DNA from: a virus | Strand: one strand, 5' to 3' | IMG/VR virus record: IMGVR_UViG_3300013131_000183 | Span: 1-29,144 of that record | Length of the DNA: 29,144 nucleotides | Shown: positions 3,292 through 28,049 of the stretch, in pieces | How positions within the stretch are numbered: the first letter of the stretch is position 1 | How the letters are laid out: every line of letters begins with the position of its first letter | Position numbers and translations under genes: made by a program | Notes under the pieces: model-generated | Database searches by the model: none | Seen by the model: the letters and a program-made list of their open reading frames with translations, nothing else | Told to the model about the DNA's origin: nothing

Positions 3292-6275
3292 TACCTTGCT
3301 CCTTGGCCAAACTCTTTGAGTTGCTGCGCCTTGTTGGAGATGCGCAACTGTATCTGCGGCGAGAACTTGCTGTCCATCAGAACTTTCTGACGGGCACCAG
3401 TGAACACCCGCTCGAACACCTTGTCGATCTGCTGCTGGTAGAAGATCAGGTCGTACTGGTCTGTGATGTTGCTGATCTTGATTTCGTTCAGCACTTCCTC
3501 GACCAGGCCCTCGAGGCCGAGCTCCTTGTTGGCCACGCGCAGCATCTCGTTGTACTCATCCGGCAGCATCTTGGTGTCGGCGGTGATGCCCGTCACCGGG
3601 TCGCGCATCGACACTGTATTGGATGGCATGGCAACCCGGGAGCCCATTGCGATCAGGCCCTGGTCTGCCTTGCGGGTCTTGCCTTCCTTTGTGCGCAGCG
3701 GACTCCATGCGTACTCGTACTCGACCGGCTCGCTCCAGATGTTCAGCTTTGGCGGCAGGTCATCAGACAGGCCAGGCGTGTCGGCGCGGAACTTGTTCCA
3801 TCCATCCATCAGGCCACGCATGCCAGCAGGCGCATTCGGGTCAAGCCGGTACTCGCGCACCATCGGGTCGACTTCCTGGCGCACCGTCCGCATCGGCCGC
3901 TGGAAGGGGTTTGCGATGGACTGCGTGACGCGCATCGTTTCCTGCGTCATGTAGTCGATCATGCCGATGGCACGCTCTGATCCAGTGGCGAAGGCAGATC
4001 CGAACAAAGCCGTGATGTTCTGCACGCCAGTCAGCATGGGGTGTTCCATGATGTAGTTGGCGAACCCGAACACAGCGCCGCCGACAGCAGCATTGATGCG
4101 GCTGTCGTCGTTCTCGTACTTCACATAATCGTTGTAGTCGGATGCCATTGCCAGCATCGCGCCTACTGGCTCGAGGCCCTGATAGCTGATGTAGAGCTTG
4201 CCCTCGTAGTCGCCAGAGCCAAACCTGTATGTGCCAGGGAATCCAGCCAACCGCTGGCGCAGCTGCTCCGAGACGCCATCAGACACATCGACAACGATGC
4301 TGTACGGCTGCCAACCTTGGCGCACCATTGCTTCGCGCTGTGCCTTGTTGCCGGGCCCGGATCCGGTCATGTAGTCCTGGCCGTACTGGCTCAACGTGTA
4401 CATCGCTGCGCCAGACATACCGACCTTTGCCAATGCCATGTCGCCTTCTTTGCCACCCATTGCAATGGCAGCACGAACGTCCTTGCTGGCGAAGGCCAGA
4501 GGCGTGCGCTCGACAACGGCAGAGATGACGTTGATCGGGGCGGACAGGAACGGGATCTGCGTGCGCAGCGCAAAGCGCATTGGGTCGGTCGGCCCCAACT
4601 CGGCCAGCACCGCACCCATCTTGCCCTCGACCCGCTGGCTGAAAGTAGACGCCGCAGCCACCTCTTGCAGGAACTCTGGTGGGCTCATGGCCACGTTTTG
4701 CGATGCGGCCTCAGACACACGTCGAATCTCATCCGCGGATGCACCGGCCAGCCGCGCCTCGTCAGCGGCAGACAGCGCCGCACGGGTCTGCTCGGCCACC
4801 AGCTCGTAACGGTAGTTCATCCCCTTGAAGAACTGGTCCGTTGTCAGGATGGTGCGGCCTGGCAGCGTGATGGCAGCGTTCAGCCCCCACAGGCCGGCAT
4901 CCAGCAGACTGCCATTCGGGTTCCAGAACCTGGGATCACCACGCTTGAACAACTCCAGCCGTTGCTGGCTGCGGGCGATCTTGTCAGGGTCCAGCCAGTC
5001 CTGCGGGTAACCCTTGGTGAATGCGTGCTTCGACGCCTGCCACCCATCCGACACGGCTTGGCGAGATGCTGCCAACATGGCACCAACCTCTTGGATGCGA
5101 TACCGATCCGCAGAGCCCAGGCCAATGACTTGCCGGGTCGCACCAATGCCGGCTGCCAGGCTGCGCTCTGCCATTCGATAGGGCGTATAGATGGCGCTGG
5201 ACAGGAAGTTCTTCAGCAGCGTGCCGGTGCCCATCAGCAGGGAGTTGACGTAGACGGTGAAGGCCTTCTCCCAAGGCGTGCCCGTGGCCATCTTCGAGAT
5301 CAGCGCCGCCTTGCCCTCAGGCGTGCCAGCATCCAGATAGGCCTGGGCGAACTTCACCAGATCGGTCTCGGTGCCCAGCGACTCAACAATGGTCTGCATT
5401 GGCACGATGCCATCCCGCGGGATGCGCATGACCGACAGACTCTGCGCCACGTTGGTCTGGTAGCCCTTCACCGACTCTTGCAGCACCGAGTGGAAATGCA
5501 CCCACTGCGCAGCCTGGGCTTTCTCTTCGAGCGTGGCCGAGCCGGTGGCGATCTTCTGCATGAACCCGTCCAGCTTGGCAGCGCTGGCGGTCATCGCGTT
5601 CAGAGCGCGATAGGTGTTCTCCGGGTTGACGATCATCTTCCCGCTGGTCAGCTGGTTGATGAACGTCATGTCCATGCCAGCCCGCACCGCGGAGTCTTTC
5701 ACCTCGTCAAAGGTGATGGTCTTGACCTTGATGCCGAGCTCGTCGTTGATGGCATCCACCGTCGCCTTCACCGACTCCGTGGTGTCCATCCGCCCGAGGT
5801 TGAACTGCGCCAGCGGCGGCCGATCAGACTCTGGCGTGCGGGCGGGGCGCTCCTGCACCCTGGCCTCGCGGGCAGCCGCCACGCTTTCCGGCGTGACCTT
5901 GGGGCGGGCACGCTTTGATGCCTCGACCTTGGTCACCACACCAACCGTGGGCTGGTCACCCAGGCCCAGGGTGGTGGCCGCCTTGGCTGCATCACGCTGC
6001 GCCTGGATCTGTTCTGCCTCGGGTGACACAGGTGGAGGCATCGTCGGCTCGACGCGAGGCTCAGGCGGCGGCTTCTCGCCACGCAGGCGCTTCAGCAGCT
6101 TCAGACCTTCGCTCACCCTGCCGGCAACAAGCACGCCCTCATCCTCTGCGGGCGCGATCTCCGGCATCGATGGCTCTGGCAGCGGCTGCGTCTCGGAGAT
6201 CGCCTTCCGCTGATCCGCATCGGCCAGCGCTTCCGCGGCCTTGTCCAGACGTTGCTCAAGGGGTGCGATTGCCAT
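3291..6275 (-). CDS. Large internal virion / DNA-ejection protein (gp16-like position)
   Basis: This 994-residue protein is the longest in the window. Residues 1 to about 150 are Pro/Glu/Ala-rich and low in complexity. The rest is mainly helical, with hydrophobic stretches such as VYVNSLLMGTGTLLKNFLSS and GGAVFGFANYIMEHPMLTG that could interact with membrane. Its C-terminal two thirds resemble the region shared by large phage ejection and polyvalent proteins (LPD38-like), by memory only. No lysozyme or transglycosylase motif was seen. The position, last of three internal proteins and just before the tailspike, matches T7 gp16, which is injected to form the DNA conduit. ATG 6275 forms a TGATG junction with the preceding gene and has AGGAG seven bases ahead. 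A TTG directly upstream is the alternative. Confidence 0.75.
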   Translation of the reverse strand: MAIAPLEQRLDKAAEALADADQRKAISETQPLPEPSMPEIAPAEDEGVLVAGRVSEGLKLLKRLRGEKPPPEPRVEPTMPPPVSPEAEQIQAQRDAAKAATTLGLGDQPTVGVVTKVEASKRARPKVTPESVAAAREARVQERPARTPESDRPPLAQFNLGRMDTTESVKATVDAINDELGIKVKTITFDEVKDSAVRAGMDMTFINQLTSGKMIVNPENTYRALNAMTASAAKLDGFMQKIATGSATLEEKAQAAQWVHFHSVLQESVKGYQTNVAQSLSVMRIPRDGIVPMQTIVESLGTETDLVKFAQAYLDAGTPEGKAALISKMATGTPWEKAFTVYVNSLLMGTGTLLKNFLSSAIYTPYRMAERSLAAGIGATRQVIGLGSADRYRIQEVGAMLAASRQAVSDGWQASKHAFTKGYPQDWLDPDKIARSQQRLELFKRGDPRFWNPNGSLLDAGLWGLNAAITLPGRTILTTDQFFKGMNYRYELVAEQTRAALSAADEARLAGASADEIRRVSEAASQNVAMSPPEFLQEVAAASTFSQRVEGKMGAVLAELGPTDPMRFALRTQIPFLSAPINVISAVVERTPLAFASKDVRAAIAMGGKEGDMALAKVGMSGAAMYTLSQYGQDYMTGSGPGNKAQREAMVRQGWQPYSIVVDVSDGVSEQLRQRLAGFPGTYRFGSGDYEGKLYISYQGLEPVGAMLAMASDYNDYVKYENDDSRINAAVGGAVFGFANYIMEHPMLTGVQNITALFGSAFATGSERAIGMIDYMTQETMRVTQSIANPFQRPMRTVRQEVDPMVREYRLDPNAPAGMRGLMDGWNKFRADTPGLSDDLPPKLNIWSEPVEYEYAWSPLRTKEGKTRKADQGLIAMGSRVAMPSNTVSMRDPVTGITADTKMLPDEYNEMLRVANKELGLEGLVEEVLNEIKISNITDQYDLIFYQQQIDKVFERVFTGARQKVLMDSKFSPQIQLRISNKAQQLKEFGQGAR

Positions 6276-19194: not shown

Positions 19195-20737
19195 CGAAGT
19201 CCCCCGTGACAACAGTCTGCGCCATGAACGGCACGGCCGATGACTTGTTCTGCGGGCGGATCATGCGGTTGTACTCGCCGCCGCCCAACATCAGGTAGCC
19301 GAATGAGTCGCCGATGTGAGAGTGCTCGTTCTTGTTTGGCGCATCGCGGAAGCGCTCCTGGCCAGCACCGATGGCCACGCGCTTGAAGTGATACCCGCCT
19401 GCAAGAGCCTTGCGCAGCAGACGGCACTCGCGGCTGACGATCAGCCCGGGCTTGCCGCCGATCAGGCGTTGCATCGGGGCGGCAGCGGACTCACGGCGAA
19501 CCTTGAAGTCATTGCTGGGTGTGGGCTGGGCCTTCAGTCCCAGGCTGCGCAGATGATCGAAAGCGGTGACCTCGTAGATGGCATCACGCGCCATGCCGGC
19601 GGGGTCACCCCACAGCATGACCTGATGCTGCGGGTATCGCTGGTTCAGTTCCGCCAGCAGCTGCTGCGCGAAGCGCTCGAGGCCCATGTCGAAGGTGACG
19701 ATCTCATGCAGGACGATCCATCGACCATTGGGCAGACGCTGGCCGATGGTGGCCGCGGGTGTCAGGCCGAAGTCCAGCCCGACCTGTATGGGAACAGACG
19801 GCTCGACCAGCACATCACCTGACATGGTGCTGTCGTCGTACTCCGGCCAGACGGGACGTCCTTCCTGCACATAGGTGTACTCGCCACCGGCGTAGCAGCG
19901 GATCCAGTCGAGGTTCTTGCCGCCCAGCATCTGCAGGTAGTAGCCGGCCGGCAGGTTGTTCAGGTTCTCCGCGACGGGGTTGATCTTCCACCACTTGCCG
20001 GCGGCCAGGATGTGATCATTGGCCTCGGGGTTCTCCGGCAGGTCTTCGGAGGATACTTGCACGACGCCGCCTGGTTGCTTGTAGAACTTCCAGGCGAACT
20101 GACCAGACAGCTTCTCCACCTCGGCCAGCTTGAACCACCAATGGTCATCGTCCATCGGGTTCGTGTCCATCCAGATGCCCGACCATGTGGCACCGCCGTC
20201 GCGTTTGGTGGGGTATCGGCCGACGCGATGTGTCAAGCCATCGATGACGGCTTTGGGCAACTCGCGGGCCTCGTTGACCCAGGCACCCGTCAGTTCCAGG
20301 GACAGCAGCTTGCGGACGTCCTTGGGCTGGTCCAGGGCCAGGAAGATTACTTCGCAGTCAATGCCGGCAGCATCACCCCGGGCCGGCAGACGGATGTGGT
20401 GGGTGATGGGAGGCGTCCAGAGCAGTGGGCCGAACGTTGCCTCGGGGAACAGATCCAGCCACGTCTTGATGGTGGTGGTCTTCAACATCGGGTAGCTGTT
20501 GCGCACGATGGCGAAGCGGCTGTAGCGGATGCCGTCGACCGGTGACGGCTTTTGCTTGACGGCACGCATCATCACCTCGGCGCAGCAGGCATAGGACTTG
20601 CCGGAGCCGACAGGCCCCATCATGCCGCGGACGAAGCCATCGTCCTGCAAGAACTTCCAGACAGTGGGCGACTTGCGGAAGTCGAGGTTCAGAGCCGCGG
20701 TGGCCAGCTCTTTCTGCGAGGCCTCTTTGGTCTTCAT
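19181..20737 (-). CDS. Terminase large subunit
   Basis: This 518-residue packaging ATPase-nuclease has Walker A GPVGSGKS at 41-48. A Walker B-type strand with the catalytic glutamate is in LTGAWVNEARE (E156). The RNase H-like nuclease has its three acidic residues at GLDFG (D322), WGDPAG (D378) and HIGDSFGY (D477). The protein pumps DNA into the prohead through the portal and cuts the concatemer. ATG 20737 overlaps the HNH stop by four bases; a longer in-frame start lies inside that gene. Length and motifs are normal for a complete enzyme. Confidence 0.94.
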   Translation of the reverse strand: MKTKEASQKELATAALNLDFRKSPTVWKFLQDDGFVRGMMGPVGSGKSYACCAEVMMRAVKQKPSPVDGIRYSRFAIVRNSYPMLKTTTIKTWLDLFPEATFGPLLWTPPITHHIRLPARGDAAGIDCEVIFLALDQPKDVRKLLSLELTGAWVNEARELPKAVIDGLTHRVGRYPTKRDGGATWSGIWMDTNPMDDDHWWFKLAEVEKLSGQFAWKFYKQPGGVVQVSSEDLPENPEANDHILAAGKWWKINPVAENLNNLPAGYYLQMLGGKNLDWIRCYAGGEYTYVQEGRPVWPEYDDSTMSGDVLVEPSVPIQVGLDFGLTPAATIGQRLPNGRWIVLHEIVTFDMGLERFAQQLLAELNQRYPQHQVMLWGDPAGMARDAIYEVTAFDHLRSLGLKAQPTPSNDFKVRRESAAAPMQRLIGGKPGLIVSRECRLLRKALAGGYHFKRVAIGAGQERFRDAPNKNEHSHIGDSFGYLMLGGGEYNRMIRPQNKSSAVPFMAQTVVTGDFDVFA

Positions 20738-21225
20738 AGCTGCATTGCCATCAGCGCGAATGGGTTGGTGGTGTCCTTCCACCCGGAGCCTGACCGGATT
20801 TTGTGGATGACGCGCTGGTGGACTCCGTACTGCTGGGCCAGCTGCCTCTGCGTGAAGCCTTCAGCGTTGCGGATCTGGCGAACCATGTCCATCGTCAGCT
20901 TGGACTTGCGCCTGGTTGCCGCGATGTGCTTCATCTTCCATTCGATGGTTCGAGTGGAGGCGACCAGGGTCTTGCGGGCCAGGTCAGGCCGAGAGATCAG
21001 GGACAGGTGAGCCGGGTTCACGCACAGCTTGTTGTTGCACTTCATGCGTACCACCTTGCCATCAACCTTCATCCCCAGGCGCGTGGCAACGGATCGAGCA
21101 ACGGTGGAGCTTTTGCCGCCATTGGATGTGTACGGGTGGCCGCTGGTGGCAACGTACCCCGTCCACAGCCAGCAGTCACCCTCCTCGACTGACTTTTCTC
21201 GGATGACATCCAGAATGTTTCTCAC
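20734..21225 (-). CDS. HNH-type endonuclease with C-terminal HTH, altered active site
   Basis: This 163-residue protein has CWLWTG at 18-23 and the HNH_3-like finger MKCNNKLCVNPAHL at 61-74 (N70 and H73 present). A C-terminal helix-turn-helix follows at about 108-145 (SKLTMDMVRQIRNAEGFTQR, then QLAQQYGVHQRVIHKIRSG), typical of free-standing phage homing nucleases. Where relatives read V-x-H-x-C, this protein has a methionine (M61), and the usual upstream AHR is ARS. The general-base histidine therefore appears missing. It sits between the two terminase genes, a frequent insertion site. The GTG start at 21225 overlaps the previous gene by 50 bases. Confidence 0.8.
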   Translation of the reverse strand: MRNILDVIREKSVEEGDCWLWTGYVATSGHPYTSNGGKSSTVARSVATRLGMKVDGKVVRMKCNNKLCVNPAHLSLISRPDLARKTLVASTRTIEWKMKHIAATRRKSKLTMDMVRQIRNAEGFTQRQLAQQYGVHQRVIHKIRSGSGWKDTTNPFALMAMQL

Positions 21226-21367: not shown

Positions 21368-21804
21368 TTCTGTTGCGCATCTACAACATCTGGCGACAGC
21401 ACGTTGATGCCCAGCACGGACGGCTTCTCGTTGTCTTCCGGTGAGTCCAGCAGACCGGAGGCCTTGGCCAGCAGACGCAGGACACCCACCTTGTCGTAGA
21501 GCTCGATGTCCAGCGTGCGGGTGATGTTGCCTTCCTTGTCGGCACGCTCGTTGACCTTGATGGACTTGATGGCCTGCAGGGCGTGCTCGGGGATCTCGTC
21601 TGACGGCTTGACCTGAATGTTGCCCTGGTCGTCCCAGGTCATGATGTCCGTGATCTTCGTGTTGGCCATGCACAGCAACGCATACGCCACAGCCTCACGG
21701 TTGTGGACGATGGTGGCACTGCGCTCGAGACGACGCTGGACAGAGCGGATGCCACCCCAGCCGTTGAGCGACGGGATGGCTTTGGAGACTGGTGTGCGTG
21801 CCAT
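21364..21804 (-). CDS. Terminase small subunit
   Basis: This 146-residue protein has C-terminal features of phage small terminases: KSIKVNERADKEGNITRTLD, then IELYDKVGVLRLLAKASGLL, followed by an acidic, variable tail. The N-terminal half is basic (SVQRRLERSATIVHNREAVA). It recognises the packaging site and loads the large subunit. The genes between it and the large subunit (a small DNA-binding-type protein and an HNH protein) look like insertions. The start makes a one-base overlap with the SSB-like stop. Confidence 0.76.
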   Translation of the reverse strand: MARTPVSKAIPSLNGWGGIRSVQRRLERSATIVHNREAVAYALLCMANTKITDIMTWDDQGNIQVKPSDEIPEHALQAIKSIKVNERADKEGNITRTLDIELYDKVGVLRLLAKASGLLDSPEDNEKPSVLGINVLSPDVVDAQQK

Positions 21805-22049
21805 CAGAACGGGATGTCGTCGTCTTCGACAGGACGCGGCTTGGCAGCGGGGCGGCTTTGCTGCTCCTCCTTCGGCTCGAAATTGAAGGACATGAACTTC
21901 CGCCCGGACTCGCTCTCCTTGATCCAGGCAGCCATGCGGAACACCTCGCCACCAATCATGCAGTCCCCGGTGTAGTCGGGACCACGCTCGTTCTTCTTGT
22001 CCTGCACCTTGAACAACGTGCCGGTTCCATCCTTCATCTGGTACGCCAT
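21804..22049 (-). CDS. SSB-like OB-fold protein with acidic C-terminal tip
   Basis: This 81-residue protein is predicted beta (GTGTLFKVQDKK, then DYTGDCMIGGEVFRMAAWIK, KFMSFNFEPK). It ends in a Pro/Arg linker and the tip EDDDIPF. A DDDIPF end is the hallmark of bacterial and phage single-strand DNA-binding proteins, used to recruit partner enzymes. The body is much shorter than cellular SSB and resembles DUF736-like mini OB proteins. It is the first gene after the long non-coding region and has a strong AGGAGGTCGC ribosome site at ATG 22049. Confidence 0.72.
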   Translation of the reverse strand: MAYQMKDGTGTLFKVQDKKNERGPDYTGDCMIGGEVFRMAAWIKESESGRKFMSFNFEPKEEQQSRPAAKPRPVEDDDIPF

Positions 22050-22113
22050 GCGACCTCCTGTAGTGAGGCTGGAAGTGTAACCAGTTGCCGGGAACAAACG
22101 ATGCAGTCGAAGA

Positions 22114-22170
22114 TCATCCTGTGCATGAAGTCATGCAAAAGATGCATAGGATGAACATCCCACTGGATGT
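22114..22170. promoter_or_regulatory. Nested inverted repeats ahead of the SSB-terminase operon
   Basis: TCATCCTGTGCAT (22114-22126) pairs with ATGCATAGGATGA (22142-22154) over 13 positions with one G-T. Within it TGCATGA-AG-TCATGCA (22122-22137) is a perfect 7-bp palindrome, so the two structures are mutually exclusive. ACATCC-CACT-GGATGT (22155-22170) adds a third hairpin. It may be an operator for a dimeric regulator or a structured leader. It lies about 65 bases before the SSB-like start. Confidence 0.68.
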
Positions 22171-22293
22171 AACATCAGGGGAACGGGGCCATCACCCAGC
22201 CCGGACGCAGGCGGTCTGCTAGCCAAGTCCATAAGCGTGTCGAATCCTCAGCACCCTCTAGTAGCGTAAGCGAACGGGAGCAACCCAGGGGAG

Positions 22294-22319
22294 CCAGCAT
22301 CTGACACATGCTGGTCAGA
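22294..22319. repeat. Two overlapping, mutually exclusive hairpins
   Basis: CCAGCAT (22294-22300) pairs with ATGCTGG (22308-22314). TCTGAC (22300-22305) pairs with GTCAGA (22314-22319). The arms overlap, so only one can form at a time. There is no T-run on either side. Confidence 0.55.
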
Positions 22320-22338
22320 CTAGATAAACGATAAGCAG

Positions 22339-22376
22339 CACTCCCAAAGAGTGAAACACCCACCCCCCCGTGGGTG
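22339..22376. repeat. Two hairpins in series with a C/G-tract loop
   Basis: CACTC-CCAAA-GAGTG (22339-22353) is followed by CACCCAC-CCCCCC-GTGGGTG (22357-22376), a perfect 7-bp stem. On the minus strand the second is followed by TTTCACTCTTT, a weak T-rich stretch. It could therefore act as an imperfect terminator for leftward transcription after the Rep-like gene. Confidence 0.5.
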
Positions 22377-22440
22377 CTACGGACTGCACAACCTACACCG
22401 TCCCCGCGGAGCGTGCCCAGCACATCGCGGCGGGAGGGAT

Positions 22441-22459
22441 GGCAGCATTGAGTGCTGCC
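22441..22459. repeat. Perfect 7-bp hairpin
   Basis: GGCAGCA-TTGAG-TGCTGCC forms a perfect stem with a five-base loop. No U-run follows on either strand. It is one of several structured elements in the non-coding region. Confidence 0.55.
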
Positions 22460-22500
22460 ACCCACCCGCGAGACAGAGCAGCACTCGGCCAGGATTACAG

Positions 22501-22524
22501 GGGAAAAATTGAGGGAAAAATTGA
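22501..22524. repeat. 12-bp tandem repeat, two perfect copies
   Basis: GGGAAAAATTGA occurs twice head to tail and is followed by GGAGGA. The A/T core (AAAAATT) is the most AT-rich stretch of the non-coding region and could be a duplex-unwinding or protein-binding element. Confidence 0.72.
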
Positions 22525-22544
22525 GGAGGACATCCCTATCGGTA

Positions 22545-22570
22545 GGGTGAGGGCCGGGGGGGGCAAGGGG
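22545..22570 (+). other. G-quadruplex motif
   Basis: Four G-runs on the plus strand (GGG-TGA-GGG-CC-eight G-CAA-GGGG) satisfy the G3+ with 1-7-base loops rule. A small hairpin CCCTA-TCGG-TAGGG at 22534-22547 shares the first run and would compete with it. Confidence 0.6.
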
Positions 22571-22609
22571 TCGGCTCGCGCTGCCGCAGTGCCTCGCGCC
22601 GCTCAGCGC

Positions 22610-22654
22610 CACCACCCCGGCCTGCTCGGTCAGACCACCCGGCACCACCCCGGC
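22610..22654. repeat. Iteron-like direct repeats
   Basis: CACCACCCCGGC occurs at 22610-22621 and 22643-22654, exactly 33 bases apart, about three helical turns. A shorter relative, ACCACCCGGC (22635-22644), lies between them. They sit about 55-100 bases beyond the end of the Rep-like gene and could be its binding sites. GC-rich chance repeats are the alternative. Confidence 0.48.
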
Positions 22655-22663
22655 ACACCGGGC

Positions 22664-22697
22664 GTCACGGACTCAAACGGACGATTGGATCCGTGAC
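22664..22697. repeat. Inverted repeat just after the Rep-like gene
   Basis: GTCACGGA (22664-22671) pairs with TCCGTGAC (22690-22697), with partial further pairing inside (TCAA with TTGG). It lies 11 bases past the Rep-like stop. With no T-run it is not a standard terminator; it may be an mRNA 3' end or a binding site. Confidence 0.58.
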
Positions 22698-22708
22698 ACC
22701 CTGCCTGC

Positions 22709-23437
22709 TCAGAGTGACAGGCCCTGCCTGGCTCGCATGCTGGCCAGCATCGCCGCTTCGCGTTCGAGGGCGTGACCGGTCGGTGGCTTCAGACCCTCGC
22801 CGCGGTAGCGCTCGAGCACATCGCCGATGAGTGCCGCGGCCGTGGACTCGAGCACCTCGACCCTCGACCTATCGACTACCTTTCCATTCGCGCTAGTTAT
22901 CGCCCCATTCGATTCTTGAATGTTAGACAGAAGCCGTCCCTCATCCCGCGAGTCTCTGGCAAGCACGTCCTCTGCCGACATGGTGGGATCGAACACGATG
23001 CGCAGGGTGGCCGTGCGCGCTGTCGGGCCGCTGTAGTAGGGTTTCGCTGTTTGTTCGATGTACCCGGCTTTCTTGAGCCACAGGATCTGCTGGCTCACGG
23101 CTTCCTGGGTGACGCCCAGGTCATCTGCGATCTTCTGCTCGCCGCACCATAGGAACCCGTTGCGGTTTGCGTGGGCTGCCAGCATGACGAGCACGCGCAG
23201 GGCTTGCCGGCTCATCTCTCTGTCGTGATAGACGCGGAAGGGCAGGACGATGAACTTCCGTGCGTCCTCTTTCTCTTGTTGTCCTACTTGCGGCCTTGCC
23301 GGTATATCGAAGCCATGGCTGCCCGCAGCTGCTGCAGGTGGTTGCTTCCGCGGCCGGCCAGGTCTTCGAGTCTGTCCCTGACTGTCTGAGGGTGATGCTT
23401 GCTTCTGCGTGTGGTCGGGTAGGTTTGCAGGATCCAT
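22709..23437 (-). CDS. Winged-helix replication-initiator-like protein
   Basis: This 242-residue protein has a disordered N-terminus with an AT-hook-like RRPGRPRKQP at 24-33. A winged-helix domain follows at about 64-130 (FIVLPFRVYHDREMSRQALR, then NGFLWCGEQKIADDLGVTQE and AVSQQILWLKKAGYIEQ), of the kind found in phage and plasmid replication initiators. The C-terminal part is helical (AALIGDVLERYRGEG). It may bind the repeats directly downstream. Start ATG 23437 is the only ATG, GTG or TTG before the conserved domain, yet it lies 154 bases inside the Cys-rich gene and has only a weak ribosome site. A transcriptional regulator is the alternative role. Confidence 0.66.
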   Translation of the reverse strand: MDPANLPDHTQKQASPSDSQGQTRRPGRPRKQPPAAAAGSHGFDIPARPQVGQQEKEDARKFIVLPFRVYHDREMSRQALRVLVMLAAHANRNGFLWCGEQKIADDLGVTQEAVSQQILWLKKAGYIEQTAKPYYSGPTARTATLRIVFDPTMSAEDVLARDSRDEGRLLSNIQESNGAITSANGKVVDRSRVEVLESTAAALIGDVLERYRGEGLKPPTGHALEREAAMLASMRARQGLSL

Positions 23438-23538
23438 CTGGCTTCACACTCCATGCGCCAGTGCTCGCAGTAGTTGCAAACCTGGCGGTTGTCGATCAGG
23501 GTCTTCGTCTTGTCTCTGTCGCACCGGTCGCAGTTCAT
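23284..23538 (-). CDS. Small CxxC zinc-binding-type protein
   Basis: This 84-residue protein has a four-cysteine knuckle, CDRCDRDKTKTLIDNRQVCN then YC, at about residues 3-24. HWRMECEARWILQTYP and a basic helical C-terminus follow. The 'C-x2-C...CxxC...W..ECEAR.IL' layout recalls short phage proteins of the DUF7696 type, from memory and uncertain. A role as a DNA-binding or adaptor protein is possible. ATG 23538 overlaps the RusA stop by four bases. Its C-terminal 50 codons are shared in another frame with the Rep-like N-terminus. Confidence 0.66.
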   Translation of the reverse strand: MNCDRCDRDKTKTLIDNRQVCNYCEHWRMECEARWILQTYPTTRRSKHHPQTVRDRLEDLAGRGSNHLQQLRAAMASIYRQGRK

Positions 23539-23990
23539 GCCGGGCTCAGCGTCACCGTGGTTCCCGGCTCGGCCTTCGCGTATCGCTTCGTGACGGCCAG
23601 CATCACTACCTGGCTGTCATCCTCATACAGGATCCCGTTCAGGGCGTCCAGTACGGTTTTGCCCAGGTTGTCAACGTCTGGCCTGCTGGTGTGCCATCGG
23701 TCGAATCGCTGGGCGTCCTCTCTGCGTGCTCGAGGCCAGCTCTTGGGTATCGGCATATGGCAGACCACGCTGCAGATCAGCGGGCCTTGCATGGGCGCCA
23801 GCGGCTTGCCATCTGTCGACCGCATCGATGCGACAGCCGCGGCTTCCCTGCGGATCTTGTCTTCGTGCTCTGCTGTCCTGGCCGGTGTGTAGGTGCGGCC
23901 TGCTCGCGTCACCCTGGGTCTGGCCTTGCCCACGGGAGCTCCCGGGATCCACACGATGCAGGATGAACCCGACCAATAGCTGAAGCTCAC
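23535..23990 (-). CDS. RusA-family Holliday-junction resolvase
   Basis: This 151-residue enzyme carries the RusA core RPDVDNLGKTVLDALNGILY, then EDDSQV. D105, D107, K111 and D125 match in spacing the catalytic Asp and Lys residues of E. coli RusA. The N-terminus (IVWIPGAPVGKARPRVTRAG) is also typical of the family. It cuts four-way junctions during phage recombination and before packaging. GTG 23990 was chosen: it overlaps the previous TGA by four bases with GAGAGG ahead. The ATG at 24026 lies far inside the preceding gene. Confidence 0.88.
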   Translation of the reverse strand: MSFSYWSGSSCIVWIPGAPVGKARPRVTRAGRTYTPARTAEHEDKIRREAAAVASMRSTDGKPLAPMQGPLICSVVCHMPIPKSWPRARREDAQRFDRWHTSRPDVDNLGKTVLDALNGILYEDDSQVVMLAVTKRYAKAEPGTTVTLSPA

Positions 23991-25274: not shown

Positions 25275-25933
25275 TCATGGCCTATATCGCTTACTACCGT
25301 GTTAGCACGGATCGGCAGGGCCGTTCAGGCCTGGGCCTTGATGCCCAGCGTGAAGCCGTGCGCAGGTTTGCCGGCCGCGATCAGATCCTGGCCGAGTATG
25401 TCGAGGTCGAGTCCGGCCGCAAGACTGACCGTCCTCAGCTGGCCGCGGCGATGCAGCATGCACGCAAGGCCGGGGCCGTCCTGCTGATCGCGAAGCTGGA
25501 CCGCCTGGCCAGAAACGTGCATTTTATTTCGGGCCTGCTCGAGTCCAAAGTAGCATTCCGATGTGCCGACATGCCAGAAGCCGATGTCACGTTTCTACAG
25601 ATGATGGCTGTCTTCGCTGAGCTTGAAGCTCGCAAGATCAGCGAGCGGACCACGGCTGCGCTGCAAGCCCTGAAGGCCCGCGGCCGCAGACTGGGCAGCC
25701 CGAATCCGGCCGCAGGAGCGGCTGCAGCTGGCGCAGTCAAGGCCAGACAAGCCCAGGCCTATGCGCAGCGCGTAGCGCCGATCCTGGCCGATGTGAAGGC
25801 CTCTGGCGCACGCTCACTGCGCGAAATCGCCGCTGGCCTGCAGGCCCGCAACATCGCCACGCCGGCCGGATCTGCAACCTGGCATCCTCAGCAGGTGTCG
25901 GCCCTTCTGGATCGATTGGAGCTCGCAGCATGA
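25271..25933 (+). CDS. Small serine recombinase (resolvase/invertase type)
   Basis: This 220-residue protein has the resolvase domain AYYRVSTDRQGRSGLGLDAQ, with catalytic Ser12. KLDRLARN lies at 75-82 and FLQMMAVFAELEARKISERT at about 108-127. A C-terminal helix-turn-helix (SLREIAAGLQARNIATPAGS, then the WHPQQVSALLDRL end) is of recombinase type. It would exchange strands at short sites to invert, resolve or integrate DNA. No partner sites were found here. At this size it lacks the long zinc-rib domain of large serine integrases. ATG 25271 overlaps the GP88-like stop; ATG 25277 is possible. Confidence 0.87.
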   Translation: MIMAYIAYYRVSTDRQGRSGLGLDAQREAVRRFAGRDQILAEYVEVESGRKTDRPQLAAAMQHARKAGAVLLIAKLDRLARNVHFISGLLESKVAFRCADMPEADVTFLQMMAVFAELEARKISERTTAALQALKARGRRLGSPNPAAGAAAAGAVKARQAQAYAQRVAPILADVKASGARSLREIAAGLQARNIATPAGSATWHPQQVSALLDRLELAA

Positions 25934-26037
25934 AACAGCACTATCGCCCTGCCCGGCGCAGCACCTGGGCTGATCTAGGCGCGGCCGTGGTCATCGTCGC
26001 CCTGGCCCTGCTGATCGGTTACGCCCTCGCATCATGA
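25930..26037 (+). CDS. Single-helix membrane protein, 35 aa
   Basis: A basic N-terminus (MKQHYRPARRSTW) precedes a hydrophobic stretch, DLGAAVVIVALALLIGYALA, which spans one membrane pass. It overlaps both neighbours by four bases (ATGA junctions), which is the main evidence that it is real. The function is unknown. Confidence 0.6.
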   Translation: MKQHYRPARRSTWADLGAAVVIVALALLIGYALAS

Positions 26038-26348
26038 GCTCGAGCAGGCCAGACCAGGCCCGCGGCCAGGCCCTGCGCGACGCCGGAATCGCCCGCGTCG
26101 CGTCGCAGAGGGCTACTGTACTTGGGGCGCTGAAAAATCTCGCACGGAACCTCGCCTGGGAGCGCGAGGAAATATCGATCAACGATATACGCGAGGCAGC
26201 GAACCTGCCGAGCGACACCACCCCCCTCGTTTTCTCGGCCGTGTTCCGAGGCAGCGAATGGGAACCCTGCGGCTATGTCACAGCCGCTCACCCGCAGGCC
26301 CACGCACGCACCGTGCGCCTGTATCGACTCAGGAGAGAACAGTGGTAG
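26034..26348 (+). CDS. Putative winged-helix phage protein, 104 aa
   Basis: This 104-residue protein begins SSSRPDQARGQALRDAGIAR, then VASQRATVLGALKNLARNLA. REEISINDIREAANLPSDTT and LVFSAVFRGSEWEPCGYVTA follow, with a basic tail. The recurring phage pattern 'GxxRVA...A...ftxxDvr...P...gxxfra..r.Glixx.Gy....P..h' is known in early regions, and a winged-helix fold is likely. Its role could be in replication or regulation. The start overlaps the membrane protein stop by four bases, and the end overlaps the exonuclease start by seven. Confidence 0.58.
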   Translation: MSSSRPDQARGQALRDAGIARVASQRATVLGALKNLARNLAWEREEISINDIREAANLPSDTTPLVFSAVFRGSEWEPCGYVTAAHPQAHARTVRLYRLRREQW

Positions 26349-26998
26349 GCAAGGTCACATCCGACACCGTGATGAGCGCGTCACGGCTGCCGGCACTATT
26401 CGGCGTGTCGAAGTACTCGACACCGAACGATGAGCTGCGCAAGTCCATCGCCGCGATGGACGGCGCGGAGCGCGAGGACATCACCAACGAGGCGATGCGA
26501 TGGGGGAACCTGCTCGAGCCGCTCATCCTGCAGGAGTCCGTGTCTCGCCTGGGGCTGGATCCGAACGGGGTCTGCACCATCTGGCCAGAGGCGCAGCGCC
26601 ACCTCGAGTGGCCGCTGCAGTGCTCGCTCGACGGCACCGCCACCGGCGACGGCCGGCAGGTCGTCACTGATAAGGGCGCGGGAATCTATGTCATCGGGGC
26701 CGAGTCCATTTTCTTGGACGGCATCGGTGTGCTCGAGGCGAAGCTGACCAGGGTCTGGCCGGAACCCTCCCCCGCTATCTACCGTGGGCCGCTGCAGTTG
26801 CAAGGGCAGATGGCCATCATGAGTGCTACCTGGGGCGCAGTGTGCGTGCTGTATCAGGGTGTTGAGTTGCGCATCTTCCTGTTCGAGCAGGATCTGCGCG
26901 TGCAAGAGTCCATCCGCGATGCGGTGTGGGAGTTCGACGGCAAGCTGTCCCGGTATTACCAGACCGGGGAGATCGACCTGTATCAGGAGGCAAAGTGA
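26342..26998 (+). CDS. YqaJ/lambda-Exo-type recombination exonuclease
   Basis: This 218-residue PD-(D/E)XK nuclease has MRWGNLLEPLI (E59), CSLDGTA (D97) and VLEAKLTR (E132-x-K134). A downstream PLQLQGQMAI gives the conserved glutamine. Such 5'-3' exonucleases resect DNA ends and hand 3' tails to an annealing protein, encoded next. The GTG at 26342 has AGGAGAG ahead. Upstream in-frame residues to 26258 lie inside the winged-helix gene and were excluded. Confidence 0.86.
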   Translation: MVGKVTSDTVMSASRLPALFGVSKYSTPNDELRKSIAAMDGAEREDITNEAMRWGNLLEPLILQESVSRLGLDPNGVCTIWPEAQRHLEWPLQCSLDGTATGDGRQVVTDKGAGIYVIGAESIFLDGIGVLEAKLTRVWPEPSPAIYRGPLQLQGQMAIMSATWGAVCVLYQGVELRIFLFEQDLRVQESIRDAVWEFDGKLSRYYQTGEIDLYQEAK

Positions 26999-27738
26999 GT
27001 GCTATCGCAAAGGCCTTCGTGGCCGCCAAGAAGGGCTTCGCCCCTGCGCTGAAGACCAGCAGCAACCCGCACTTCAAATCGAAGTACGCGGATCTCTCCG
27101 GCTGCCTGGAGGCAGTCAACGACGCCCTGCTGGATGCCGGCATCGCCGTGTATCAGGAGACGGCCGAGTGCTCGGACGGGGTCATCGTCGAGACGGTCTT
27201 CCTGCATGAGAGCGGCGAGGTGCTTCGCGGCGGGAAGCTCCACGTCCCGGCAGCAAAGTCAGACCCGCAAGGCTACGGGTCTGCACTCACCTACGCCAGG
27301 CGCTACAGTCTGATGGCTGCGTGCGGCATCGCCGCGGAGGACGACGACGGCAACGCTGCCAGCAAGCCAAAGCCGAAGGCCGAGCGGGGCGGCAACCCGC
27401 TCGACCAGATCCGCAGTGCAGGCAGCGGCGATCCCAAGCCCGAGCCGAAACCCGAAACCAAAGCCGGCCTGCCCTTGCTGATCCCGCGCAGTGAGACGCC
27501 GCACTCGTTTCACCCCGACATCGGGACATGGTTTGAAGCCTATGAGCGCATGGCTCGCACCGTTGCAGGCAATGGCAAGACGCCACCTCGGCAGGCCATG
27601 ACGAAGCTGCGCGAACTGCGCGAGGCCAACGAGGCCATGATGGGTCAGCTGTCGCCGGAGCAGAACGCCCGAGCTGCGGCTGCGTACAAGAAGCGCCTGG
27701 CAGAACTGGGTGCGCAGATCGAAGGAGATCCCCTGTGA
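26995..27738 (+). CDS. ERF-family single-strand annealing protein
   Basis: This 247-residue protein has the ERF signature SSNPHFKSKYADLSGCLEAV, then DALLDAGIAV and LHESGEV. DPQGYGSALTYARRYSLMAA lies at about 90-109. A disordered, Pro/Lys-rich linker (PKPKAERGG to PETKA) and a helical C-terminal domain follow. It pairs complementary strands and works with the exonuclease encoded directly upstream, like P22 Erf or lambda Red beta with Exo. GTG 26995 overlaps the exonuclease TGA by four bases with CAGGAGG ahead. The longer ATG frame from 26926 is a shadow. Confidence 0.9.
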   Translation: MSAIAKAFVAAKKGFAPALKTSSNPHFKSKYADLSGCLEAVNDALLDAGIAVYQETAECSDGVIVETVFLHESGEVLRGGKLHVPAAKSDPQGYGSALTYARRYSLMAACGIAAEDDDGNAASKPKPKAERGGNPLDQIRSAGSGDPKPEPKPETKAGLPLLIPRSETPHSFHPDIGTWFEAYERMARTVAGNGKTPPRQAMTKLRELREANEAMMGQLSPEQNARAAAAYKKRLAELGAQIEGDPL

Positions 27739-28049
27739 GCAACGATTACAAGACCCTCGAGTCCCAGGTGCTGGCCTGGGCCAATGCCCGACAGATCATC
27801 CCGAACAGTACCTGCACGGCGCAGGCCATCAAGACGCTGGAGGAGGTCACCGAACTGCTGTCAGCCCTGCACCGCAAGGATTGGGGCGAAGCCCGCGACG
27901 CATACGGCGACGTGCTGGTGACGCTGATCATCGGCGCTGACCTGGCCGGCCTGGATCTGGTGGACTGCCTGGCCCTGGCATACGACACCATCAATGACCG
28001 CCGCGGTTACCTGCGCGAAGACGGGGTGTTCGTGAAGGAGCCCAGGTGA
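27735..28049 (+). CDS. MazG-like nucleotide pyrophosphohydrolase
   Basis: This 104-residue all-alpha protein has the metal-binding pattern LEEVTELLSAL (E36, E37, E40), then EARDAYGDVLVTLI (D55, D59) and a TINDRRGYL end that fits MazG-like enzymes. These hydrolyse nucleoside triphosphates such as dUTP or noncanonical (d)NTPs to monophosphates, protecting phage DNA synthesis. Substrate preference cannot be told. GTG 27735 makes a four-base overlap with the ERF stop. Confidence 0.8.
   Translation: MSNDYKTLESQVLAWANARQIIPNSTCTAQAIKTLEEVTELLSALHRKDWGEARDAYGDVLVTLIIGADLAGLDLVDCLALAYDTINDRRGYLREDGVFVKEPR

Follow-up and report, generated by a model that had tools for sequence, protein, structure and literature searches.

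A conserved element behind the initiator gene in a probable O-type origin module of MEP301-like podophages

The locus and its phage family

The question raised by this locus is whether a repeat-bearing, non-coding stretch beside a Rep-like gene belongs to the replication origin of the phage. The DNA analyzed here (the window) is a linear virus record of 29,144 bases whose minus strand encodes head, connector and tail proteins of podophage type. Its TerL was 74% identical to that of Methylophilales phage MEP301, and at least 599 TerL-relative stretches of this podophage family were present in IMG/VR. The minus-strand coding order was RusA, the Rep-like gene, about 660 nt without an assigned gene, SSB, TerS, HNH and TerL. 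The gene for SSB (single-strand DNA-binding protein; 21807-22049, minus strand; PHROG E 1.3e-8) is the first gene past the candidate origin region. An HNH endonuclease gene with a helix-turn-helix adjoins TerL in the window (20734-21225, minus strand), and none is annotated at the matching place in MEP301.

MEP301 (MW452941) shares with the window family a homologous Rep, the gene order and both the conserved element and the structured RNA described below. Its record carries CDS features only, without origin or RNA annotation, and the main text of the MEP301 paper (PMC8024684) never uses the word 'origin'. In literature searches outside subscription journals and preprints, no paper was recognised as describing the structured RNA or this origin. 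The distant TerL relatives BcepC6B, Hodr, SI2, Ss1 and VA-RY-3, searched as stretches of 8.7-15.6 kb rather than whole genomes, yielded neither a Rep match nor an RNA with E below 0.38, and no match to the element was convincing (VA-RY-3, E 3e-4).

Named repeats and the conserved element

The original prediction placed an iteron-like origin at 22501-22697, just behind a winged-helix Rep-like gene. The features that it named were present: a perfect 12-bp tandem GGGAAAAATTGA at 22501-22524, four G-runs on the plus strand at 22545-22570 (read from the sequence), 12-bp direct repeats CACCACCCCGGC at 22610-22621 and 22643-22654 (33 apart) and an inverted repeat whose arms, 22653-22679 and 22682-22708, are 74% complementary. 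The wHTH Rep-like gene (22709-23437, minus strand) directly adjoins the flagged stretch.

As iterons, these repeats did not hold up. The CACCACCCCGGC pair (22610-22654; GCCGGGGTGGT on the minus strand) occurred in the window and in no other of the 316 loci, and the exact tandem of the TCAATTTTTCCC box (22501-22524, minus strand) was confined to the window among 175 segments. Absence from relatives had been named in the original prediction as an outcome that would speak against it, and the repeats of an iteron origin in 22501-22697 were not conserved in relatives. With up to two mismatches allowed, TCAATTTTTCCC had three matches against 0.78 expected, a number equalled in 5 of 100 shuffles. GCCGGGGTGGT had 39 matches across the window against 15 expected and, because these were spread over the whole window, is not specific to the flagged place. 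By themselves the named repeats were weak, lying near chance, as low-complexity features without function would. The inverted repeat right behind rep (22653-22708, minus strand) had counterparts in many relatives, which carry hairpins of different sequence behind rep.

The feature exceeding chance was the conservation of a C-tract/AT-box element among relatives. When the intergenic region was compared by blast with the first 84 records, mostly fetched by TerL, 22501-22573 recurred in relatives. This element of about 73 nt (22501-22573, minus strand; nhmmer E 1e-10 with a family model including the window's copy) consists, in the late-gene sense, of a C-tract, a G-run and then a AATTTTTCCC or AAATTTTCCC box. 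With an iterated profile, 58 of 83 records matched at E < 0.001, MEP301 among them (E 6e-9), in a model that includes its own hits and a count that includes any records with missing upstream DNA. Altogether it was found in 211 of 316 loci as 175 distinct segments, once per locus except in L033, where the AT box is repeated beside it.

The tandem of the original prediction is the doubled AT box of this element, and its four-run G motif (22545-22570, plus strand) is the reverse complement of the C-tract part. In L002, a second AT-box copy stands 49 bp further on and is not an exact tandem. A C-run of at least five was found in 174 of the 175 distinct element segments and a four-run G motif (loops of up to 7) in 66, compared with 1.4 in shuffles. 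Hairpins of the element were hardly more stable than those of shuffles (z -1.9 to +0.25, five tested). Chance features without function are nevertheless a hardly credible account of the element, which was recovered at a fixed place in separate fetches and whose conservation already contradicts chance.

Linkage of the element to rep and to packaging genes

Among 108 loci fetched by the element only, rep lay just upstream on the same strand in 95, with a gap of 96-611 nt from the aligned Rep end. Twelve of the other 13 had at most 1.5 kb of upstream sequence and one was a chimera (L302). In this chimeric contig, bacterial genes are joined through a poly-G/C run to phage DNA just before the element. 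Loci fetched by the RNA pattern included 45 with a Rep homologue in which the element was downstream of rep on the same strand, and 22 Rep loci without the element. In twenty of these 22, the sequence stops no more than 571 nt from the aligned Rep end; the MEP301-like L137 and L167, with Rep present and no element match, were true misses. The element was detected without a Rep match in L086, L117, L122, L145 and L195, where the available DNA ends at most 493 nt upstream. All RNA loci from other lineages were without it.

In 84 of the 86 loci that have both the element and a complete Rep ORF, the element lay 0-264 nt after the rep stop. It is not always adjacent to rep, because about 2.2 kb separates them in L157 and L176, where it is still near the RNA and SSB. 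Some loci were cut from one contig (e.g., L006/L085, L015/L230, L016/L207, L032/L118), so that the locus counts are not all independent.

The location upstream of terS and terL and the G+C-rich composition would also suit a packaging site (cos or pac) recognised by terminase. TerL was detected in 85 of the 108 element-fetched loci and, because the other 23 are short downstream (at most 3.5 kb), the linkage to rep and that to the packaging genes were never uncoupled. However, the distance from the element to TerS was looser, varying from 251 to 2356 nt (99 loci), and the element was internal in the eight matching records among 22 searched (28-40 kb), for example at 3401 of 33017, 27020 of 35989 and 29532 of 35324. 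A cos site is disfavoured because contigs run through the element at varying places and because MEP301 was assembled as a circle (PMC8024684). A packaging site is therefore considered improbable.

On the coding strand, the element also separates rep from the SSB-TerS-TerL genes, and its predicted transcript would be C-rich and then enter a U-rich box. This arrangement would be accounted for if the element controlled transcription where replication genes give way to late genes (as a Rho-loading site, a terminator with antitermination, or a late promoter). Against it, a scan of 21900-23600 of the window gave no sigma-70 promoter-like or intrinsic-terminator-like site, and by eye no shared -10-like box followed the element. 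In MEP301, L071 and L060, TerS is at least 1.5 kb away and the element still stands beside rep. Transcription control is thus rather unlikely, and within it a Rho or antitermination site is a possible function of the element.

The cos, promoter and terminator readings are less likely than an origin module. Sequence comparison suggests that the flagged interval is probably the 3' flank of the initiator gene and part of an O-type origin module of MEP301-like podophages, with the element as its most conserved part. The origin reading of the original prediction is thus retained for a Rep-like gene with a conserved non-coding element just behind it and abandoned for the named repeats as iterons.

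The initiator and its iterons

The window rep (22709-23437, minus strand) encodes an O-like replication initiator of 242 aa with a winged helix, as judged from PHROG replication-initiation families, AlphaFold and weak PDB fold matches. Within the Rep family, 37 of 41 members matched the PHROG 'replication initiation protein' family phrog_270 and 36 of 41 the O-like phrog_391 (window E 2.6e-5); an O-like initiator protein, as expected of a lambdoid O-type origin, is present. The AlphaFold model of the window Rep had a mean pLDDT of 81.7 and a winged-helix core. Its top PDB fold match was the 'initiator' 4pt7, a weak one (E ~1e-3), with many MarR-like regulators among the matches and the 'Rep-DNA complex' 5kbj, also weak, lower down. 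The Rep alignment A3 comprised 41 of the 42 Rep representatives (L164 left out), and alignment A4 comprised 36 of these 41 (L083, L170, L157, L176 and L054 left out).

In relatives with long Reps (at least 290 aa), the latter half of the gene carried palindromic repeats of about 20 bp, and behind them came an AT-rich tract. The 34 distinct long-Rep genes had 462 repeat pairs, compared with 92.5 in synonymous shuffles, and 18 of the 34 were above all 40 shuffles; TerL control pieces had 97 pairs versus 73.8, with 2 of 60 above all shuffles. Long-Rep relatives thus have iterons inside the initiator gene, in the manner of lambdoid origins. Short-Rep genes were mostly without such repeats (109 pairs vs 41.1 in 54 genes, 5 above all shuffles). 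This lambdoid feature was not seen in the window rep, in which no recognisable iterons were found (four pairs; shuffle mean 1.6, maximum 7).

In long-Rep loci, AT excess reached its peak, +35 points, some 200 nt ahead of the rep stop. At the place matching this tract, the window has an AT-rich patch inside rep (22883-22932, no strand assigned), a candidate unwinding region, with a modest 28/50 A/T against a mean of 19.1 (sd 3.3). Four of the 14 most AT-rich 50-bp patches of the window fall within 22128-22932, the rep patch among them.

Exact DnaA boxes numbered 18 in 102 kb of near sequence versus 8 in 556 kb elsewhere, and 14 of the 18 fall within rep, at -502 to -581. Arrays of seven DnaA-box-like sites (at most one mismatch, 11-14 bp apart) run from behind rep into the element edge in L133 and in L006, which shares its contig with L085. 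The window was without this origin feature: in 21800-23600, no exact DnaA box was found and one box with one mismatch was present at 22120. In L135, L147 and L183, paired DnaA-box-like TTATCCAC(A) were seen by eye inside the 5' part of the RNA region. The cumulative GC-skew minimum of MEP301 falls in rep (34562); the extremes coincide with switches of gene strand, and GC skew is confounded because its extremes track gene direction.

A structured RNA or folded single strand behind the element

A structured RNA (or ssDNA) candidate of about 196 nt occupies 22183-22378 (minus strand), delimited by alignment with the close relative L002 and by its covarying family, with the 5' boundary set by eye. 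The approximately 200 nt between element and SSB were nearly unchanged in L002, the closest relative, and by eye other short-Rep loci had similar sequence behind the element. The candidate RNA is present in most short-Rep relatives. At least 120 IMG/VR stretches matched a search pattern for the 3' part. In the bacterial/archaeal genome collection, this pattern was detected in one contig, a MAG contig with a TerL relative. For Rfam 15, no covariance model matched the window at gathering score, and far sub-threshold hits were the only ones (E 0.2-0.7).

The 3' domain (22183-22241, minus strand; model match 39.8 bits, E 8e-8) consists of two covarying stems and a terminal hairpin. Across 49 distinct 3' domains, pairing held in 91.8% of cells. 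Covariation scored 0.630, compared with 0.154 for shuffles and no more than 0.197 for slid controls, and each of the seven main-helix pairs showed changes on both sides. Pairs of the terminal stem are partly fixed by the search because this stem lay inside the search pattern, whereas the main helix lay outside it. The 42 distinct model-aligned rows, in an alignment fitted to the structure, scored 0.608 versus 0.154. Alignment A2 comprised the window and 48 of 50 distinct 3' domains, L092 and L107 being omitted. The window copy was found at 22183-22241 by a second model, from which both the window and L002 were withheld; its 72 sequences had been aligned by the first model, which had included both.

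A first RNAalifold run with 37 sequences recovered the 3' stems only. A 5' hairpin of at least five pairs was found in 28 of 48 sequences, compared with about 10 of 48 shuffles. The whole window copy folded no better than shuffles (z +0.91), which counts against a stable RNA in the window. G-U intermediates were nearly absent in the main helix, in alignments A2 and A5 alike (4 one-side versus 144 both-side changes in the 49 distinct 3' domains), which might also fit a folded DNA strand; the tRNA control for G-U content comprised two distinct tRNAs and was too small.

Two further ideas were dropped: a pseudoknot in which 5' AACCU would pair with the GGGUU of the 3' loop, as L010 and L176 do not covary by eye, and a single-strand origin based on the TAGCG loop, which resembles the CS-6 motif, as this loop is not conserved in the wider set. 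A minimal RNA form was noticed by eye in L155 and L181, where the central domain is reduced to a few bases between two GTTTATC motifs. In L054, L087 and L129, the RNA is located behind TerL on the opposite strand.

The orientation of the RNA differed between groups, being sense and behind the element in one, antisense and in front of rep in another. In the antisense loci (L088, L089, L092, L093, L103, L112 and similar ones), the RNA 5' end lies right at, or almost at, the rep start codon, and the 5' AACCTCACC of the RNA is complementary to the rep Shine-Dalgarno sequence. It is quite possible, from this arrangement, that the structure is simply a leader or antisense RNA controlling translation of rep or ssb and is unrelated to initiation. 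However, sense-type loci, the window included, had no such match before rep by eye, and RNA presence goes with short Reps and few iterons. The RNA was also found on contigs without a match to this Rep (L095, L098, L100, L109, L110, L111, L126, L130, L146, L152, L155, L166, L193, L194 and L201), where it was located, in those scanned, near RecE/RecT-like or exonuclease genes, primases/primase-helicases, or terminase. The broad model phrog_270 matched one of these 15 records, several of which are fragments.

RNA presence and initiator type

RNA presence was compared with Rep length in TerL- or element-chosen loci with 105 distinct Reps and 1 kb downstream. Rep had 198-281 aa in 16 of the 17 RNA-positive loci, the exception being L068 with 314 aa, and 280-371 aa in 83 of the 88 RNA-negative loci. 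The remaining five RNA-negatives were two extraction errors (L252 and L227, 13 aa) and the short Reps of L207, L267 and L293, for which the RNA was not found; RNA absence is uncertain because the loci are partial. For RNA-negative loci, iteron pairs numbered 1166 vs 230, and 45 of 88 loci exceeded all 30 shuffles; for RNA-positive loci they numbered 59 vs 19, with 4 of 17 loci exceeding every shuffle. Among records of 28-40 kb, the exact RNA pattern was present in none of 14 with long Reps, the model finding one RNA, in L068. The eight pattern-matching records of this size have short Reps, and seven of them were fetched by RNA.

On a TerL tree including RNA-fetched loci and thinned from 101 to 86 rows, RNA and initiator type each need nine changes, and at least five of the nine RNA changes are forced by well-supported branches. 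The two traits were concordant in 3.7 of five independent pairs on supported branches on average, and opposite in 0.0; with only five such pairs, the test cannot reach significance (median p 0.125).

A tentative reading, which we hold with considerable doubt, is that the RNA family (about 200 nt, or a folded ssDNA), common to this family and unrelated phages, might be a replication-start module replacing initiator-bound iterons. There would then have been repeated switches between a long O-like Rep with iterons and a short Rep plus RNA, with the same element kept.

Comparison with known origins and a model of initiation

Lambdoid origins have iterons and then an AT-rich tract inside the initiator gene, according to PMC7466680. 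The MEP301-like family resembles them in its O-like initiator and, in long-Rep relatives, in the iterons and AT tract within the gene; the tract beside the iterons is clear in these relatives, and the window has a modest AT patch in the matching position. It differs from them in the conserved C-tract/AT-box element behind the initiator gene, and in that the window and most short-Rep members are without recognisable iterons in rep.

In one group of mycobacterial prophages, some origins depend on a Rep protein and some are RNA-based, as shown experimentally (PMC7157519). The likeness to these RNA-based origins is the use of protein or RNA within one phage group; the difference is that a short Rep is still present in the window family. 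Our RNA model gave no match in Alma 25500-28000, the one mycobacteriophage region tried. We take the G-rich tract followed by an A/T-rich box to be reminiscent of R-loop priming of the ColE1 RNA II type, although, unlike in ColE1, an initiator gene is present and no transcript is known at the element.

If the interval belongs to an origin module, Rep would bind an origin in its own gene and flank, melt AT-rich stretches and load the helicase. The role of the element within the module may be in melting, helicase entry or priming, and this unwinding, entry or priming part would be used whatever the iterons. In the window, the initiator is short and has no recognisable iterons, and the candidate structured RNA or folded strand is located between the element and the SSB gene. 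The element may also do something else, because the iterons and AT tract of long-Rep relatives sit in rep, about 400 nt away.

Comparison alone thus marks a probable start of copying in a large phage family whose sole isolate found carries no annotated origin. Comparison also yields a structured RNA that is absent from Rfam and shows strong covariation. The family would offer a testable case in which an RNA or folded strand and protein-bound repeats may replace each other at a phage origin.
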